In this document: one piece after another, positions 128 to 57,345 of the stretch | How positions within the stretch are numbered: position 1 is the stretch's first letter | Layout: each line of letters opens with the position of its first letter | DNA from: Sporosarcina jeotgali | Lineage (GTDB): Bacteria > Bacillota > Bacilli > Bacillales_A > Planococcaceae | DNA length: 64,000 nt | NCBI RefSeq assembly: GCF_033304595.1 | Contig: NZ_CP116341.1 | Coordinates: forward strand, 1,593,001-1,657,000 | Direction: 5' to 3' | The notes under the pieces: model-generated | What the model was told of the DNA's origin: nothing | Database searches by the model: none | What the model saw: the letters and a program-made list of their open reading frames with translations, nothing else | Program-made: the position numbers and the translations under genes

Positions 128-1844
128 GGTTCTTACGCGAAAACGGGGAGTTAGCCTCTAACCTATTACGTCTTGAATGATTACTTTTTGAAAATAATTA
201 CAGGTGATACAATACTCGCTTTTCCAAGACCTTAAAGCCTGCTCGACCATACATTAAGCGCTTAAGTGTCTTTAATCGATTGACATTTCCTTCTGTTGGA
301 CCATTGCTCCAATGCAAACGTATCCCAAGCAGAATGGCGTCTAAATCGTTTTTCACTCCTTGGAAAAACGATTGGATAGATTTATTTTCAAAACCCTTAT
401 GGTTTTCTATCCATTGTGGCAATTGGTCAGCTGCTTTTTCTTTGATCAATGATCGAAATGAATGAATTAGCTTACTTAATTCTTTTATCAAAGGGAATGT
501 TGACAGAAAGTCAGGATGGAAGCTTTGTAGTTCTTCAAGAACGTCTTCATTATCAGGATTCCATAATAACCGTAAGGTCTTTTGCCGAAAAGACAGACCT
601 GGGGTTTCCAATTTAGCAGAGCGATTACGTGCGCTCGTAATCATTCCAGTCAATGTATCCAGGGATCCAGTATACCCTTGAGATCGGCATGTCTCCTCAA
701 TTTGGTCGGAACTCATTTTATCTTTCACCAGTGAAGAAACCAAGGGATAGTAGGCGGTATCCGGCGAAGCACGTTCCTCATAAGGAGGCACTGTCTGATT
801 TAAGTCGGAGTAGACGGTGTTCCTTACAACGCCGAGTTTCCGTGCGATAGTTGCGACACGATATCCCTCTGAAAATAACTGCTGGGATTGTTGAATACGC
901 TGCCATCTTTCTTCAGACCGGTTCCATGGAACCGAATCAGACTCTTGGGCTAAAGTCGTTTCAACTTTTTTATCCTCGGTTATAGAAGATGCGTTCCACT
1001 TCCTAGGGATACACGAATAAATGGCTTTTTTTGACGCTTCGAACAGCTGATGAAGTACATGCCAGCGATCAGCCACCTGCTGAATAGTAGGCGAAGCATC
1101 ATGAACTGCCTTGGCATACCCTCTTGATCCGTCCCGAGTAATAAGACAGATTTCCGGATGGCCTAAAAGCCACTTCGTGACTTCCGCTGAATCTCTTGTC
1201 GGTATCAACCCTAGCGGCTTGTTTGTCTCCAAATCAATAAAAATCGTTCCATAAGATAGACGCTTCTTGAACGCGAAGTCATCAATTCCTACAAAAGGGA
1301 GAGCCCTCAGGCTTCTCTGGGGTAAATGATTTGTTTTTTATGGATCGTAAAATCGTGTCATGACTGACTGGAATGTGAAGAGAGCGGCAGATCTTTTCCG
1401 CAGCCAGGCAACTCGTCGAAAATCCGATGGTCTCAATCACTCTTTCTAATCGTTCTGTTCTTCTGTGATAAGGTTGTAGCCATGAGATTCGCTCAGTGAA
1501 AACCCGTGCGTCACACTCGGTATTTTCGCAGAACCACTTACTTGTAATCACCTGGATTTCGACCGGAGTGTCTGCATTAGCTAAATCTTTCACCAATCGA
1601 GTGTATCGGCTATGGCGACGATGGGAAGTTTCCTGGCACTTTGGGCATTTGGAAGAACTAGAACGAAGTTCAATAATAAGAAAAATCACATCATCTGTCT
1701 GTTTGAAATACAAGAGTTGATCTTTTTCTATGAACGGAAGTGTTAAATTCGTTAGCAATTCCATAGGGAGCCACCCTTTCGTTTTTTCTAAAACTATACC
1801 CAGAAAATGACGAAACAAATCCTCCCCAAACCACCGTAAGAACC
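128..1844 (-). mobile_element. ISL3-family insertion sequence with 8-bp target duplication
   Basis: The element is 1717 bp. Its ends are imperfect 23-bp inverted repeats at 128-150 and 1822-1844: both begin GGTTCTTACG and share GGGGAG at positions 18-23. The 8 bases on each side are identical, GGGTTTAT at 120-127 and 1845-1852, the duplication length expected of the ISL3 family. Deleting the element and one copy of the 8-mer restores the 20-bp phase of the surrounding array exactly. The only gene inside is a transposase broken by a frameshift. Because every array unit contains the same 8-mer, the duplication alone is not proof; the restored phase and the terminal repeats are stronger. Confidence 0.92.
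198..1764 (-). pseudogene. ISL3-family transposase, frameshifted
   Basis: This is a DDE transposase of the ISL3 (IS204/IS1001/IS1165) type, split into two frames. The N-terminal frame (to 1282) starts at the ATG at 1764 behind GAAAGGGTGG and carries zinc-finger cysteines (CPKCQ and CENTEC) plus a helix-turn-helix region. The C-terminal frame (198 to about 1310) carries the catalytic set: GIDDF for the first Asp, DRWHVLHQ for the second and NGPTEGN for the Glu. The frames join around 1282-1315, where a one-base change moves reading by +1 near CTCCCTTTTG. The simplest reading is an inactivating indel. Programmed +1 slippage at CCC-TTT is possible but unsupported. The C-terminus appears complete. 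Confidence 0.88.
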
Positions 1845-4839: not shown

Positions 4840-5748
4840 TCAAACTATTCTCGTTAACGAGGGTGATTTTCCCCATTGTTTTAAAAAGTTGGTAGCTGAT
4901 ACTTCTCCGCTAATAACTAGTGTGTCTTTTTGCTCGTCTGACAAATCGAATTGCACTGCGGAGATTCCGTCTGTCGGAATGAAGAGAACATCTTTTTCTA
5001 ATCTTTTAGAAACGTGTTTTTCATCGTGAGCGTCCTTCATCGTCGTAAAGAGTGCTTCGTAAAGTCCCAATCCATTTCGGATAACTGTTTTTTTCTTATC
5101 TGCTGGATTGTGACTCAATTTCATACCAACAATCGGGCGGATTTCTCCATTTTCAGGCTCATTGAATACCCATAAAGGAAAATTGCTAAGCACTCCGCCA
5201 TCTACGGTCACTGAGTTTCCTGCTAATGAATGCAGGATAACCGGTTCGAAAAAGAAAGGAATACTTGTGCTCATTCGTAACGCACGGGCAACAGGGAAAA
5301 AATCTGGTCTTAACCCGTACTCTCCTAGATCATCAGGCAGCACAATCAATTTTCCATTAGTTAAGTCAGATACAATAATTTTAAGGGAGCCTTCCGGCAG
5401 ATCTGCAAATGTATAAACTCCTTTTTCTGCCAGGATGTCACTAAACCAATTTTCTAGTGCCGTTCCTTGATATAGCCCCATACGCCAATAAAGCTGCAGC
5501 CACTTCATAAATGGAATCGGGATAAATGTCTTTCTTGCATCTAGCAGTTCGGGAAAGTTTTGCTGCTGCATGATGTCTTCCATTTCAACCGCCGTGTATC
5601 CGGCTGCTAACATTGCAGCGACAATGGCTCCTGCACTCGTGCCGACAGTACGCTTAAACGTGTAGCCATTTTGTTCGAACACTTTACACGCGCCAACTAA
5701 CGCAAGCCCCTTTAATCCCCCGCCTGAAAAGACGCCGTCAATTTCCAT
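4840..5748 (-). CDS. Patatin-like phospholipase
   Basis: This 302-residue protein is predicted to be a cytoplasmic serine lipid acyl hydrolase. The patatin signatures are all present: the oxyanion loop GGGLKG (residues 9-14), the nucleophile elbow GTSAG (about 38-42) and the catalytic Asp in VDGGVLSNFP (about 187-196), giving a Ser-Asp dyad. There is no signal peptide. AAAGGTGGAG sits just before the ATG. It may be cotranscribed with the downstream diguanylate cyclase (93-bp gap, same strand), but a functional link is inference. The true substrate is unknown. Confidence 0.9.
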   Translation of the reverse strand: MEIDGVFSGGGLKGLALVGACKVFEQNGYTFKRTVGTSAGAIVAAMLAAGYTAVEMEDIMQQQNFPELLDARKTFIPIPFMKWLQLYWRMGLYQGTALENWFSDILAEKGVYTFADLPEGSLKIIVSDLTNGKLIVLPDDLGEYGLRPDFFPVARALRMSTSIPFFFEPVILHSLAGNSVTVDGGVLSNFPLWVFNEPENGEIRPIVGMKLSHNPADKKKTVIRNGLGLYEALFTTMKDAHDEKHVSKRLEKDVLFIPTDGISAVQFDLSDEQKDTLVISGEVSATNFLKQWGKSPSLTRIV

Positions 5749-5847
5749 GCAATCTCCACCTTTCTGCAGCCATATAGCTTACTGTAAGAAACATCCCTTT
5801 CTTTTAGAACCAATTCATCCAATAAACCAAGCCCTCTAAATCAATTG

Positions 5848-5876
5848 TTGACTGTCTCACGTTAAGGTGTTATGAT
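5848..5876 (+). promoter_or_regulatory. Consensus SigA promoter of the candidate RNA
   Basis: TTGACT at 5848-5853 and TATGAT at 5871-5876 are separated by exactly 17 bp, with an extended -10 (TG at 5868-5869). It points rightward, away from the patatin gene, into a region with no rightward gene before a terminator. Confidence 0.8.
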
Positions 5877-5882
5877 TATTAA

Positions 5883-6160
5883 GTTATAACCAGTTAGCTG
5901 ATTCTTGAATACTGGCATTCTGCGGAATGTTTACCCATTATACGTATTCAAACTGGCGCGGCTATAGGGCCGCAAGGACGCAAAAGTAGGTAGGGTTTGC
6001 GTTGCTTATGTTAGGAAACAACTGCTGAACAACGACCGCGGCAATGATCGTTGTGAGTAAATACACAATTCTAGATGATAATAGAAGTAACATTTTCTGA
6101 TATTCAATAATCGGCTATACAAAAAAACAAAGGGATGCCCCAACCGGGCATCCCTTTTCC
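5883..6160 (+). ncRNA. Candidate structured non-coding RNA, about 275 nt
   Basis: The region between patatin and the MFS gene holds no credible ORF; the longest is 20 codons without a ribosome site. It has a near-consensus promoter upstream and a strong terminator at its end. The RNA can close on itself: TTAGCTGATTCTTGAATA (5894-5911) pairs with TATTCAATAATCGGCTA (6101-6117) with one mismatch and one G-U. Inside are hairpins CATTC/GAATG (5916-5929), GCGGC/GCCGC (5958-5973), ACGCAAA/TTTGCGT (5978-6002) and ACAACGA/TCGTTGT (6029-6054), and a stem GTATT/AATAC (5944-5948 with 6060-6064). An alternative helix, TTGAATAC with GTATTCAA (5905-5912 with 5944-5951), excludes the closing stem. The string GGACGCAAAAGTAGGTAGGG recalls the c-di-GMP-I aptamer core but not its full fold. 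No family is assigned. Confidence 0.6.
6121..6158. terminator. Bidirectional terminator between candidate RNA and MFS gene
   Basis: The perfect stem AAGGGATGCCC/GGGCATCCCTT (6130-6140 and 6146-6156) has TTTT to the right and a long A-run to the left, which is a T-tract on the minus strand. It can end both the rightward RNA and the leftward transporter gene. Confidence 0.88.
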
Positions 6161-6167
6161 AATTCCT

Positions 6168-7361
6168 CTATTCAGTTTTATCCCCTATTAACAATGCCAA
6201 AATGATCATACCGATAAATAGTGAGGCAAATAATGCGATCGTCACTTGATGGTTATTGGTTGCATCATATAATACTCCGATTAGTAACGGCAAAATTCCG
6301 CCGATAATGTATCCGCCTGTTTGCATCATCGCTGTCCAAGAATTAGTTTCTGCTGCATTCTCAGTTTCATCTAACGGCAGGACAAGTGCAATCGGGAACA
6401 TGCCTCCTAACGGCACTCCCATTAGAAGCGCACCAACCCACAAAAACGGTACATGCCCTGTCGCAAACATTCCAACTGCAACTAACCCAATTAGGAGAAT
6501 AAACAGCAGCCACATTTTTCTGCCGGGATAACGTTCCATCATAAGTGGAATTGTAATATTCAAAACAATTTGTACCGCCGTCATAAGACTGACCAGCGTA
6601 CCCGCTTGCACAATTGTCATCCCTTTCGAAATTGCGATTGGCGCAAGCCAGATAACGATTGAGAAAAACGCTGCTGACTGCAAACCGAAGAAGAATAGGA
6701 ATAACCACGCTTTGCTGTTTTTCCAAGGTGAACGGAATTCGCTTACTTTTTGTTTAGATGACTTTCCTGCTTGTTGATGTACGACTAGCTGATCAGTTGC
6801 AGAAGCGAGCCAAACTGCAATTCCTGCAAATGCCAGAACTGCCCAAATACTGAGCGCAAATGGGTAGGAGCCGGTCAATTCGTAGAAATATGCGGATAAT
6901 CCCGTACTTGCAGTAGCTCCCGCTCCGAGACCGAAAGAATAAATTCCAATTACAGGACCAGCACGGTGAGGAAAGTTCTGCTTAATCATTGCTGAAAGTA
7001 ATGGACCGGCGATGGCAATTGCAATCCCTACTCCAATAGAAGAAACTAGGAGCATTGTATACGTTGGTATGAAATCACGAAGTGCAGTCATTACACCAAT
7101 GACTGCAACCATGAAAATCATCGTTGCATTCAAACCGAATCTCCTATTTAGCACTGGAGCCAATGAAGCAAACACGCCCATGCAGATGACGGGCAAGGCC
7201 GTCAGAAGGCTCACTTGTGCATTCGTCAATGACAGTTGCCCCCTAATTAAGTCAAGGAGCGGACCAATTGATGTAATGGCTGGCCGCATGTTTAAGGACA
7301 CTGCAAAGATTGCAAAGATCAAGAGTACTGTTTTTTTTGTTGTGAGTTGGTTAGGATTCAT
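6168..7361 (-). CDS. MFS transporter, CynX/NimT (YycB-like) family
   Basis: This 397-residue inner-membrane protein has about twelve hydrophobic segments and no signal peptide. The N-terminal stretch SLNMRPAITSIGPLL followed by a long first periplasmic loop is typical of the CynX/NimT branch of the major facilitator superfamily, whose members carry cyanate or export 2-nitroimidazole-type compounds. Substrate is not determinable from sequence. AAAGGAATCCTT precedes the ATG. It is monocistronic, with the terminator at 6121-6158. Confidence 0.85.
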   Translation of the reverse strand: MNPNQLTTKKTVLLIFAIFAVSLNMRPAITSIGPLLDLIRGQLSLTNAQVSLLTALPVICMGVFASLAPVLNRRFGLNATMIFMVAVIGVMTALRDFIPTYTMLLVSSIGVGIAIAIAGPLLSAMIKQNFPHRAGPVIGIYSFGLGAGATASTGLSAYFYELTGSYPFALSIWAVLAFAGIAVWLASATDQLVVHQQAGKSSKQKVSEFRSPWKNSKAWLFLFFFGLQSAAFFSIVIWLAPIAISKGMTIVQAGTLVSLMTAVQIVLNITIPLMMERYPGRKMWLLFILLIGLVAVGMFATGHVPFLWVGALLMGVPLGGMFPIALVLPLDETENAAETNSWTAMMQTGGYIIGGILPLLIGVLYDATNNHQVTIALFASLFIGMIILALLIGDKTE

Positions 7362-10324: not shown

Positions 10325-10366
10325 AAAAAAGGAGACCCACTCGGAAAAGTGGGCCTCCTTTTGTTT
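10325..10366. terminator. Bidirectional terminator, lipoprotein gene versus cold-shock gene
   Basis: The stem AAAGGAGACCCACT/AGTGGGCCTCCTTTT has an A-run on the left and T-run on the right and lies between two convergent genes. Confidence 0.88.
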
Positions 10367-10370
10367 GTTA

Positions 10371-10571
10371 TTAGAGTTTAGTAACGTTTGCAGCTTGTAG
10401 ACCGCGGTTACCTTCAACGATTTCGAACTCAACCTGCTGGCCTTCGTCCAAAGATTTGAAACCTTCGCCTTGAATAGCTGAGAAGTGTACGAATACGTCG
10501 TCTTCTCCGTCAACCTCGATGAAACCGAAACCTTTTTCTGCGTTGAACCACTTAACTGTACCTTGTTTCAT
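10371..10571 (-). CDS. Cold-shock protein, CspB/CspD type
   Basis: This 66-residue single-domain protein binds single-stranded RNA and DNA and acts as an RNA chaperone. Both nucleic-acid motifs are intact: RNP1 KGFGFIEV (about 13-20) and RNP2 VFVHF (about 26-30). Length and sequence match Bacillus Csp proteins almost throughout. GGAGG is close to the ATG. The leader is long, about 145 nt from the promoter at 10724-10751, and contains a 54-nt hairpin, which fits the structured leaders used for cold-regulated translation in this family. Confidence 0.97.
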
Positions 10572-10628
10572 AAATGAAAACCTCCAAATAATAATTGCTA
10601 ATACATGAACCTGCTACAAAAAAGAAAA

Positions 10629-10682
10629 TTCACGTATTACGAAAAGTACCGACGTCGCCGATCACTTTTTGTAATAGGTGAA
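10629..10682 (-). promoter_or_regulatory. Long hairpin in the cold-shock mRNA leader
   Basis: TTCAC, TATTAC, AAAAGT and the central CGACGTCG pair in order with ACTTTT, GTAATA and GTGAA, separated by one- to three-base interruptions, forming a 54-nt hairpin within the 5' untranslated region, about 60 nt before the start codon. A thermosensing or stability role is inferred from known csp leaders. Confidence 0.65.
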
Positions 10683-10723
10683 TCCGTTTCTCGTCGCGAG
10701 CACTTGCTATTAACCTTTGTTCT

Positions 10724-53693: not shown

Positions 53694-53894
53694 CATTCAC
53701 ATAAGAAACAAATCCCGAATGTGCCGTCTTTGTAATATCGTTTTGAACCCGCATACAGCAGGTGGGTGTCCGATCTTCTTACTTCTGAGGTCCCATGACA
53801 GGCATGTCATCATAAGAAGAATCTAGACTCCCGACGATTGAAGTGTTCGGTCAAAACTGTCTGGCAAATAACGAACACCTCAGGATTTGTTGTT
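53694..53894 (-). ncRNA. ssrS: 6S RNA (SsrS/BsrA)
   Basis: 6S RNA binds SigA-RNA polymerase by imitating an open promoter. Support: the position between aspS and yrvM matches bsrA of B. subtilis; a consensus promoter precedes it; the predicted 201-nt length is right. The 5' ACAAATCCTG pairs with the 3' CGGGATTTGT to close the long helix, and TCCTGAGGTGTTCGTT is a typical 5' sequence. No ORF is present. Exact ends are estimated; the mature 3' end could be a few bases off. With the terminator it accounts for most of the 352-bp gap 53626-53977. Confidence 0.85.
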
Positions 53895-57059: not shown

Positions 57060-57345
57060 GGAAATACAAAAAAGCCCCCATCCCTTGCGTATGCAAGGGA
57101 CGAGAGCTTGTAATCAGCTTCCGCGGTTCCACCCAAATTGACGTCAAGGACGTCCACTCGTATCCGGATAACGGCCGGCTCCGTCTTTACCTAATATGCC
57201 CCTCGGACGTTTCAGTAAAGAGTCTCATTGGTGTTGTTCATCAAGTTAGTCTGCAGGGGGATTTCAGCCACGTCCGCCCTTCTCTGGTCAGCCACGATCT
57301 TGATTACTTTCCAAGTCATCGACATGAATTCATCATGCAGTTATC
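57060..57345 (-). promoter_or_regulatory. T-box riboswitch controlling hisS-aspS
   Basis: The leader contains the invariant T-box GGGTGGAACCGCGG (57121-57134 on the minus strand), which pairs with uncharged tRNA acceptor ends, and the terminator at 57070-57107. The stem I region has the AGTA motif and an ATCAAG/CTTGAT helix. The sequence after it, GATGAACAACACCAATGAG, should carry the specifier. CAC (His, 57231-57233) fits the first gene, but AAC also fits the usual register, so the codon is not certain. Uncharged tRNA would stabilise the antiterminator. Confidence 0.92.
57070..57107 (-). terminator. T-box leader terminator
   Basis: Minus-strand AGCTCTCGTCCCTTG and GCAAGGGATGGGGGCT form the stem, followed by TTTTTT; it competes with the antiterminator. 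Confidence 0.88.

Follow-up and report, generated by a model that had tools for sequence, protein, structure and literature searches.

The stretch of DNA analysed here, hereafter the window, comprises 64,000 nucleotides of the Sporosarcina jeotgali genome. According to its ORF list, a 419-bp gap lies between an ORF ending at 5748 and one starting at 6168; these encode a patatin-like phospholipase and an MFS transporter, both on the minus strand, and no plus-strand gene follows the element described below (Table 1). Since the list holds no ORF of at least 50 aa within the gap, a coding role was ruled out and the RNA was read as non-coding. An earlier, sequence-only reading had assigned to this 419-bp gap a structured RNA standing alone, equipped with an extended -10 promoter, a closing helix and a strong terminator of its own and followed by no rightward gene, and our results bear out each of these points. 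Elsewhere in the window, the adjacent minus-strand ORFs at 198-1232 and 1282-1818 (window 198-1818) read by eye like a frameshift-split transposase.

Table 1. Features of the RNA locus and its flanks, in window coordinates.
Feature	Position	Strand	Basis or remark
Patatin-like phospholipase gene	4840-5748	minus	One flank of the gap
Promoter TTGACT-17-TATGAT, TG preceding the -10	5848-5876	plus	Sigma-A-type; start expected at ~5883-5884
Predicted transcript, ~279 nt, non-coding	5884-6162	plus	Promoter and terminator positions, ORF absence
P1 closing helix, 5' arm, UAGCUGAUU C UUGAAUA	5895-5911	plus	Permutation test
5' box CUGGCA (long form)	5912-5917	plus	Co-occurs with 3' box
P2, 5' arm UUCUGC	5918-5923	plus	Permutation, helix length, alignment; one U-U mismatch in window
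Rfam RF01410 (BsrC) match	5928-6015	minus	60.2 bits, cut-off 38, E 5.4e-8; strand not favoured
Three-way-junction core, 79 nt	5941-6019	plus	Model R1, 87.8 bits; window among the model's 45 sequences
Core closing stem, 5' arm ACGUA, pairing UAUGU 6007-6011	5942-5946	plus	Core alignments
Core hairpin P3, GCGGC / GCCGC	5958-5973	plus	Core alignments
Core hairpin P4, ACGCAAA / UUUGCGU; conserved loop AGUAGGUAGGG at 5985-5995	5978-6002	plus	Core alignments
P2, 3' arm GCUGAA	6024-6029	plus	Permutation, helix length, alignment
3' box ACCGCGG (long form)	6035-6041	plus	Comparison of relatives
P1 closing helix, 3' arm, UAUUCAA U AAUCGGCUA	6101-6117	plus	Permutation test
Intrinsic terminator, hairpin (6129-6157) and plus-strand T run	6129-6158	plus	Also ends the minus-strand MFS gene
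MFS transporter gene	6168-7361	minus	Other flank of the gap

Promoters and terminators were scored with a simple matrix and rule devised for this analysis. Sites that fit the promoter pattern alone are not rare in the region (5 found against 6.4 expected from shuffles), but an upstream plus-strand promoter (score of at least 9) is kept at 51 of the 54 loci of what we term the long form of the RNA, the window among them, against 17/54 for the minus strand. The terminator hairpin was listed on the minus strand, where it has the longer U-run in the window and serves the leftward MFS gene. Its plus-strand tail, CCUUUUCC, is nonetheless kept in relatives, where the stretch CCTTTTCC after the hairpin is conserved, and a downstream terminator is present at 44/54 long-form loci on the plus strand and at 1/54 on the minus strand. 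In this comparison, as in the short-form counts given below, a locus whose flank was short was scored as lacking a minus-strand terminator. The segment 5884-6166 (283 nt) folds at -84.1 kcal/mol compared with -64.4 for shuffles (z -3.9), with 1/200 shuffles equally good. By sequence, positions 5848-6160 make up a plus-strand gene for a structured RNA that stands alone, and we would expect it to be transcribed in S. jeotgali.

At the centre of this RNA is a conserved three-way junction that the earlier reading had overlooked and that adjoins cold-shock genes in other genera. A MAFFT alignment of 45 loci showed its 18 pairs to be formed in 92.7% of cells, with two-sided changes at 15/18 pairs (0/500 shuffles as high), while slid versions of the structure were only 33-43% paired. 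The plus-strand covariance model R1, built from this 45-locus core alignment with the window included, recovered all 70 further loci it was given. When these 70 loci (68 distinct rows) were fitted to R1, all 18 core pairs showed two-sided changes (275 cells vs 88 in shuffles, 0/500), and the result persisted after removal of three loci that repeat a model-building core (18/18 pairs, 263 cells, 65 rows); because either RF01410 or R1 had located these loci in the first place, they do not constitute an independent discovery. The compensatory changes that the sequence-only reading had hoped to see in relatives are thus abundant, and the pattern of substitution in these sequences indicates that the fold of the core is kept by selection. 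Conservation extends to unpaired parts, namely UUCACACUGG preceding P3, the AAGG linking P3 and P4, and the G-rich P4 loop AGGUAGGG, which is nearly invariant across loci.

In the long form, the core is enclosed by a second module. P1 consists of 9 + 7 pairs flanking one C-U mismatch, with 2 further outer pairs across a bulge, close to the 17-18 bp with one mismatch that had been predicted for the self-pairing ends. Across 29 loci, P1 arms paired better with their own partners (mean -18.3 kcal/mol) than with permuted ones (-13.75 kcal/mol; 0/2000 as good); 8 of 37 selected loci, in which the arms were expected at other distances, had been dropped before this test and its P2 and switch counterparts, and the permutations ignore relatedness among loci. 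For P2, 9/2000 permutations of swapped arms were as good as the native arrangement, and mean helix length was 6.14 for own arms vs 5.43 for permuted ones (0/2000; 36 distinct loci), although in a few of the 36, the window included, the helix is weak, with only 3-4 consecutive pairs. Exchanges such as UUCUAC/GUGGAA, UUCCAU/AUGGAA, UUGCC/GGUAA and UUCUAUAG/UUAUAGAA occur in relatives. On a 31-locus alignment, P2 together with its inner extension was paired in 92.7% of cells with two-sided changes at 19/28 pairs, while P2 alone showed them at only 2/6 pairs. Taken together, these comparisons support coevolution of the arms of P1 and of P2 in relatives. RNAalifold gave P2-like and closing-stem-like pairs without P1 on a long alignment, and P3 and P4 with neither P2 nor the closing stem on a shorter one; since helices were missed, P1, P2 and the closing stem were tested as named structures, the names being drawn from the same sequences. 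Some loci without a detected terminator were retained in the long RNAalifold alignment and in the alignment designated A1. The two boxes of this module come and go together: both were present at 43/68 loci from the genome collection and the window's own genus and neither at the other 25/68, and among 54 other groups, with one further family (29 genomes scanned) entered as a single group, both boxes were found in 12, the 3' box in 13 and the 5' box in 14. Within the long form the ACCGCGG box is nearly invariant.

A search with Rfam at curated thresholds returned a single match in the gap, RF01410 (BsrC), whose original report is said to be that of Saito et al. in 2009. The sequence-only reading had missed this overlap, although a hit to a known family was among the outcomes that it had itself counted as refuting, which here bears on novelty; the match, however, lies on the strand opposite to the predicted RNA. 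Under permissive settings the additional matches in the gap were all below their cut-offs; Plastid-psbN (E 0.006, 28.6 bits, cut-off 50), sraA, ftsZ-DE, MicC and SNORA20, around the terminator, were taken as chance. By sequence and structure score the locus belongs to RF01410, and, judged from the sequences, the strand modelled by that family is probably not the structured and transcribed one. Paired columns held G-U in 64 cells vs A-C in 8 (57 vs 4 without the weak outermost pair), as expected if the plus strand is the one that folds. At the 91 loci of the short form, which lacks both boxes, promoters scoring at least 9 were found on the plus strand at 43 and on the minus strand at 13, and terminators at 39 and 6, respectively. 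Over 129 loci, the mean promoter score was 10.9 on the plus strand compared with 7.5 in shuffles; the corresponding minus-strand values were 7.0 and 7.1.

Published data point the same way. For Paenibacillus riograndensis, one report describes a minus-strand transcript of 322 nt at 688 kb and annotates it as BsrC (PMC5670726). Among the matches listed, six single-contig genomes from groups g3 and g26 (G062, G136, G150, G235, G300 and G316) carry the RNA at 539-587 kb, each on the minus strand, the exceptions being G350 (g3, two contigs), with the RNA at 4.04 Mb, and G445 (g75, single contig), with the RNA at 170 kb, both on the other strand. We read g3 and g26 as Paenibacillus-like because a g3 locus (L181) has the same neighbours as a Paenibacillus locus (L049). 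In position and orientation the published transcript therefore agrees with the plus strand, an agreement that is only supportive since it presupposes a common starting point for the assemblies. By eye we take the two neighbours of the RNA in B. sonorensis, B. haynesii, B. glycinifermentans and B. paralicheniformis to be ydaG and ydaH, and both run in its plus-strand sense. The B. subtilis bsrC segment is described as joined with its upstream gene (PMC2784878). Considering the G-U excess, the promoters and terminators, the published transcript and the sense of the flanking genes, RF01410 was probably drawn on the complementary strand. An RNA functional on the minus strand, as in RF01410, with the plus strand as its antisense, would account for the 60.2-bit score, but it fits poorly with 64 G-U to 8 A-C cells, with the scarcity of minus-strand terminators and promoters in the long form and with the Paenibacillus transcript, and we consider it extremely unlikely. 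That the element is a homologue of the Rfam BsrC locus and that its RNA is the plus strand appear, jointly and on sequence grounds, very probable.

The RNA is widely distributed. RF01410 scored above its cut-off in 72/101 relatives and in 209/398 sampled genomes of the class, with matches in 77/145 genus groups of that sample and, among the matches listed, mostly one per matching genome. A pattern of the core, run against the genome collection, hit 111 stretches, of which many are chance matches from unrelated phyla, and the conserved loop occurred near the pattern at 77 places among 142 sequences; hosts named for core and loop together include Sporosarcina, Bhargavaea, Lentibacillus, Neobacillus, Bacillus, Shouchella and Paenibacillus. 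A further 55 stretches were added, picked to cover other genus groups. R1 matched 14/398 genomes of a phylum sample, all 14 in the window's own class, and 25/29 genomes of one further family. Besides the 54 long-form and 91 short-form loci, three were of mixed form; these counts are not independent, owing to shared ancestry, to one locus counted twice (L134 = L155) and to two with the same neighbours (L129 and L183). From one genus to another the neighbours of the RNA change and the core stays, and by this comparison the RNA is structured and conserved widely among Bacillus-like bacteria.

A cold-shock protein (csp) gene lay within 1.5 kb at 26/132 loci, and by form at 25/91 short, 1/54 long and 0/3 mixed loci; our own estimate of chance proximity, from 164 csp genes in 61 genomes, is ~0.2-0.3%. 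Two genomes carry two copies. In one, L001 is short and less than 1 kb from csp, and L192 has both boxes and no csp within 1.5 kb; in the other (L146 and L147), one copy is short and less than 1 kb from csp, and L147 has only the 5' box and no csp within 1.5 kb. Two same-strand arrangements, RNA then csp and csp then RNA, were seen in several genus groups. Where csp is directly downstream, a terminator-like hairpin of 13-23 bp with a U-rich tail separates it from the core at 10/12 loci, all but L152 and L153, and ends 56-70 nt short of the csp start codon; the 12 include one locus counted twice (L134 = L155) and three with an identical stem (L143, L195 and L196). The hairpin would fit either an attenuator or the end of an sRNA. 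At L003, L005, L134 (= L155), L143, L148, L158, L179, L195 and L196, it is long, with CACAUAU or CACAUGU on the 5' side and AUAUGUG on the 3' side before the U-rich tail, and a further stretch of 5-8 nt downstream, ahead of the csp start, is complementary to part of the 3' arm and could compete with the hairpin. B. subtilis Csp proteins alter read-through at terminators (PMC8307031), and a second B. subtilis BsrC match sits between cspC and ydeB (PMC8208703).

For the window's own long-form copy the nearest csp gene is 4.6 kb away on the opposite strand, so any Csp link there is an analogy with the short form. Within the short form itself, 66/91 loci have no csp gene within 1.5 kb and 48/91 have no promoter scoring at least 9; the Paenibacillus and ydaG-ydaH type loci shown are among these. 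Several neighbours were noted by eye: L002 is a short-form RNA between a csp gene and an ORF resembling a DEAD-box RNA helicase, and a gene resembling that of the RNA-binding protein CvfB/YitL lies downstream of the long form at L163, L182, L190 and L088. The window also contains an Rfam match to the cspA thermoregulator at 10328-10688 on the minus strand, overlapping a cold-shock gene at 10371-10571.

The sequence-only reading had further proposed that a second TATTCAA copy captures the 5' strand of the closing helix, giving two mutually exclusive states. The copy does exist, at 5945-5951, but the alternative pairing is not conserved: across 29 loci, own pairing of the 5' strand with this segment was no better than swapped pairing (849/2000 permutations as good), and relatives such as L006, L009 and L015 retain very little of the complement. 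The segment forms part of the conserved UUCAC stretch of the core even where the partner is absent. We therefore rejected the two-state switch as a conserved feature, and of the regulatory or riboswitch-like RNA that had been suggested, the stand-alone structured RNA stands and the switch does not. The minus-strand flanking genes, moreover, leave the RNA without a same-strand regulated gene downstream such as a cis-acting riboswitch would have, and the 5945-5951 pairing supplies no conserved alternative. A related possibility is an orphan riboswitch-like aptamer, in which a ligand-binding junction would control csp or other genes in cis through a terminator and would here persist as a stand-alone receptor or decoy. 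The compact junction with its conserved joining strands and the hairpins before csp agree with such an aptamer. Set against these are the loss of the proposed switch and the fact that the next ORF is often unrelated or on the other strand, with no single conserved metabolic neighbour at the loci examined; we regard the aptamer as quite unlikely.

Taking the conserved fold, the strand, the stand-alone gene design, the two forms and the csp proximity of the short form as given by the sequences, we infer that a protein or small ligand may recognise the core, in which junction and G-rich loop are conserved, and that the RNA would act in trans as a structured regulator, not by changing its own fold. 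The circuit could be one of Csp control, in which the boxless short form, before or behind csp and often with a hairpin between, would govern or share csp transcripts, and the long form, with P1, P2, CUGGCA and ACCGCGG as its second module, would now be an independent gene. On present sequence comparisons we judge it about as likely as not that the RNA acts in trans and has a protein or a ligand as its partner; the tie to Csp control, which draws on analogy, is possible but doubtful. Overall, the best explanation we can offer, and we offer it tentatively, is a structured RNA that regulates in trans and may be connected with Csp control.

A different account is a structural RNP scaffold with a housekeeping task unrelated to cold shock, csp proximity being inherited gene order. 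The single match in most matching genomes, among the matches listed, and a core that stays constant while neighbours change between genera would suit it; adjacency to csp in two same-strand arrangements, before and after, in several genus groups would not, and we find it very unlikely. More serious is an Hfq-associated sRNA whose loop AGGUAGGG or ACCGCGG box would base-pair with other RNAs, mRNAs among them, without any particular cold-shock tie. The window's genome has an hfq gene, and both loop and, within the long form, box are nearly invariant. B. subtilis bsrC is listed among Hfq-bound RNAs, with a ratio of 53.6 (PMC3574147). The ACCGCGG box is complementary to the 530 region of 16S rRNA over 8-10 nt, as is CGGCUGCUGG in a Paenibacillus locus; because matches of that length are, by our own estimate, expected by chance and a simple shuffle control is ill-suited to conserved motifs, rRNA pairing is kept only as a lead and adds little to the base-pairing account. 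The targets of base-pairing sRNAs usually drift. The loop, unlike these, is kept across the sampled genus groups in which RF01410 occurs (77/145), and we consider a base-pairing sRNA unlikely. As a separate observation on rRNA, two of the 23S copies of the window's genome, at C1:105029-107715 and C1:2330303-2332512, match their family only in several pieces, as if through gaps, inserts or assembly.

A broader reading, to which we would return from the trans-acting regulator only as speculation, and a rather unlikely one, is a new structured-RNA class spanning much of the Bacillales, in which one junction receptor would serve as a cis-acting csp attenuator in the short form and as a trans-acting RNA in the long form, sensing or buffering the same partner. 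Such a class would have escaped notice so far because the Rfam family was modelled from the opposite strand. What is already known is the BsrC family, named and functionally unstudied, to which the element is homologous. Expression of BsrC is reported in other species (PMC2784878, PMC3574147 and PMC5670726), and it was undetected in B. amyloliquefaciens FZB42 (PMC4634765), as far as the accessible text of these papers goes; in that of PMC11805744, "BsrC" is a strain designation unrelated to the RNA. The parts available of five papers that mention BsrC (PMC2784878, PMC3574147, PMC8208703, PMC4634765 and PMC5670726) contain no work on what it does, how it folds or which strand it comes from, and the available text of the literature searched likewise yielded nothing on its strand, three-way junction, long form or csp relation. 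Since RF01410 apparently describes the wrong strand, annotations based on it would name an RNA that is probably not made and miss the real one. BsrC lends itself readily to study in B. subtilis, and such work could open up the matter of how Csp levels are set in Gram-positive bacteria.

Comparison with known systems places the RNA as follows. It shares with 6S RNA (RF00013) a stand-alone design with pairing ends; RF00013 had no match in 5750-6250 at E up to 10, and its match at 53708-53889 of the window agrees with the earlier statement that 6S RNA lies elsewhere. Like riboswitch and T-box leaders it has a conserved junction core, and it differs from them in having neither a downstream gene nor a conserved switch. 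The ACCGCGG box presumably recalls part of the T-box sequence; this likeness (GUGG...ACCGCGG) was rejected since the UGG lies inside helix P2 and the T-box leader (RF00230) had no match in the RNA region at E up to 10. A T-box leader match is present elsewhere in the window, at 57093-57328. With csp leaders and the cspA thermoregulator (RF01766, without a match to the RNA region at E up to 10) the short form shares a place before csp genes in several genus groups, whereas no csp gene stands behind the window's long form. The closest relative is BsrC, the ydaG-ydaH intergenic RNA of B. subtilis: it belongs to the same locus family, the window's core overlaps its 87-nt model above the cut-off, and RF01410 also matches the B. 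subtilis control genome. The Rfam model describes one hairpin of 87 nt on the opposite strand, whereas the window's RNA is predicted to be a plus-strand molecule of ~279 nt with a three-way junction, a closing helix and a second module.
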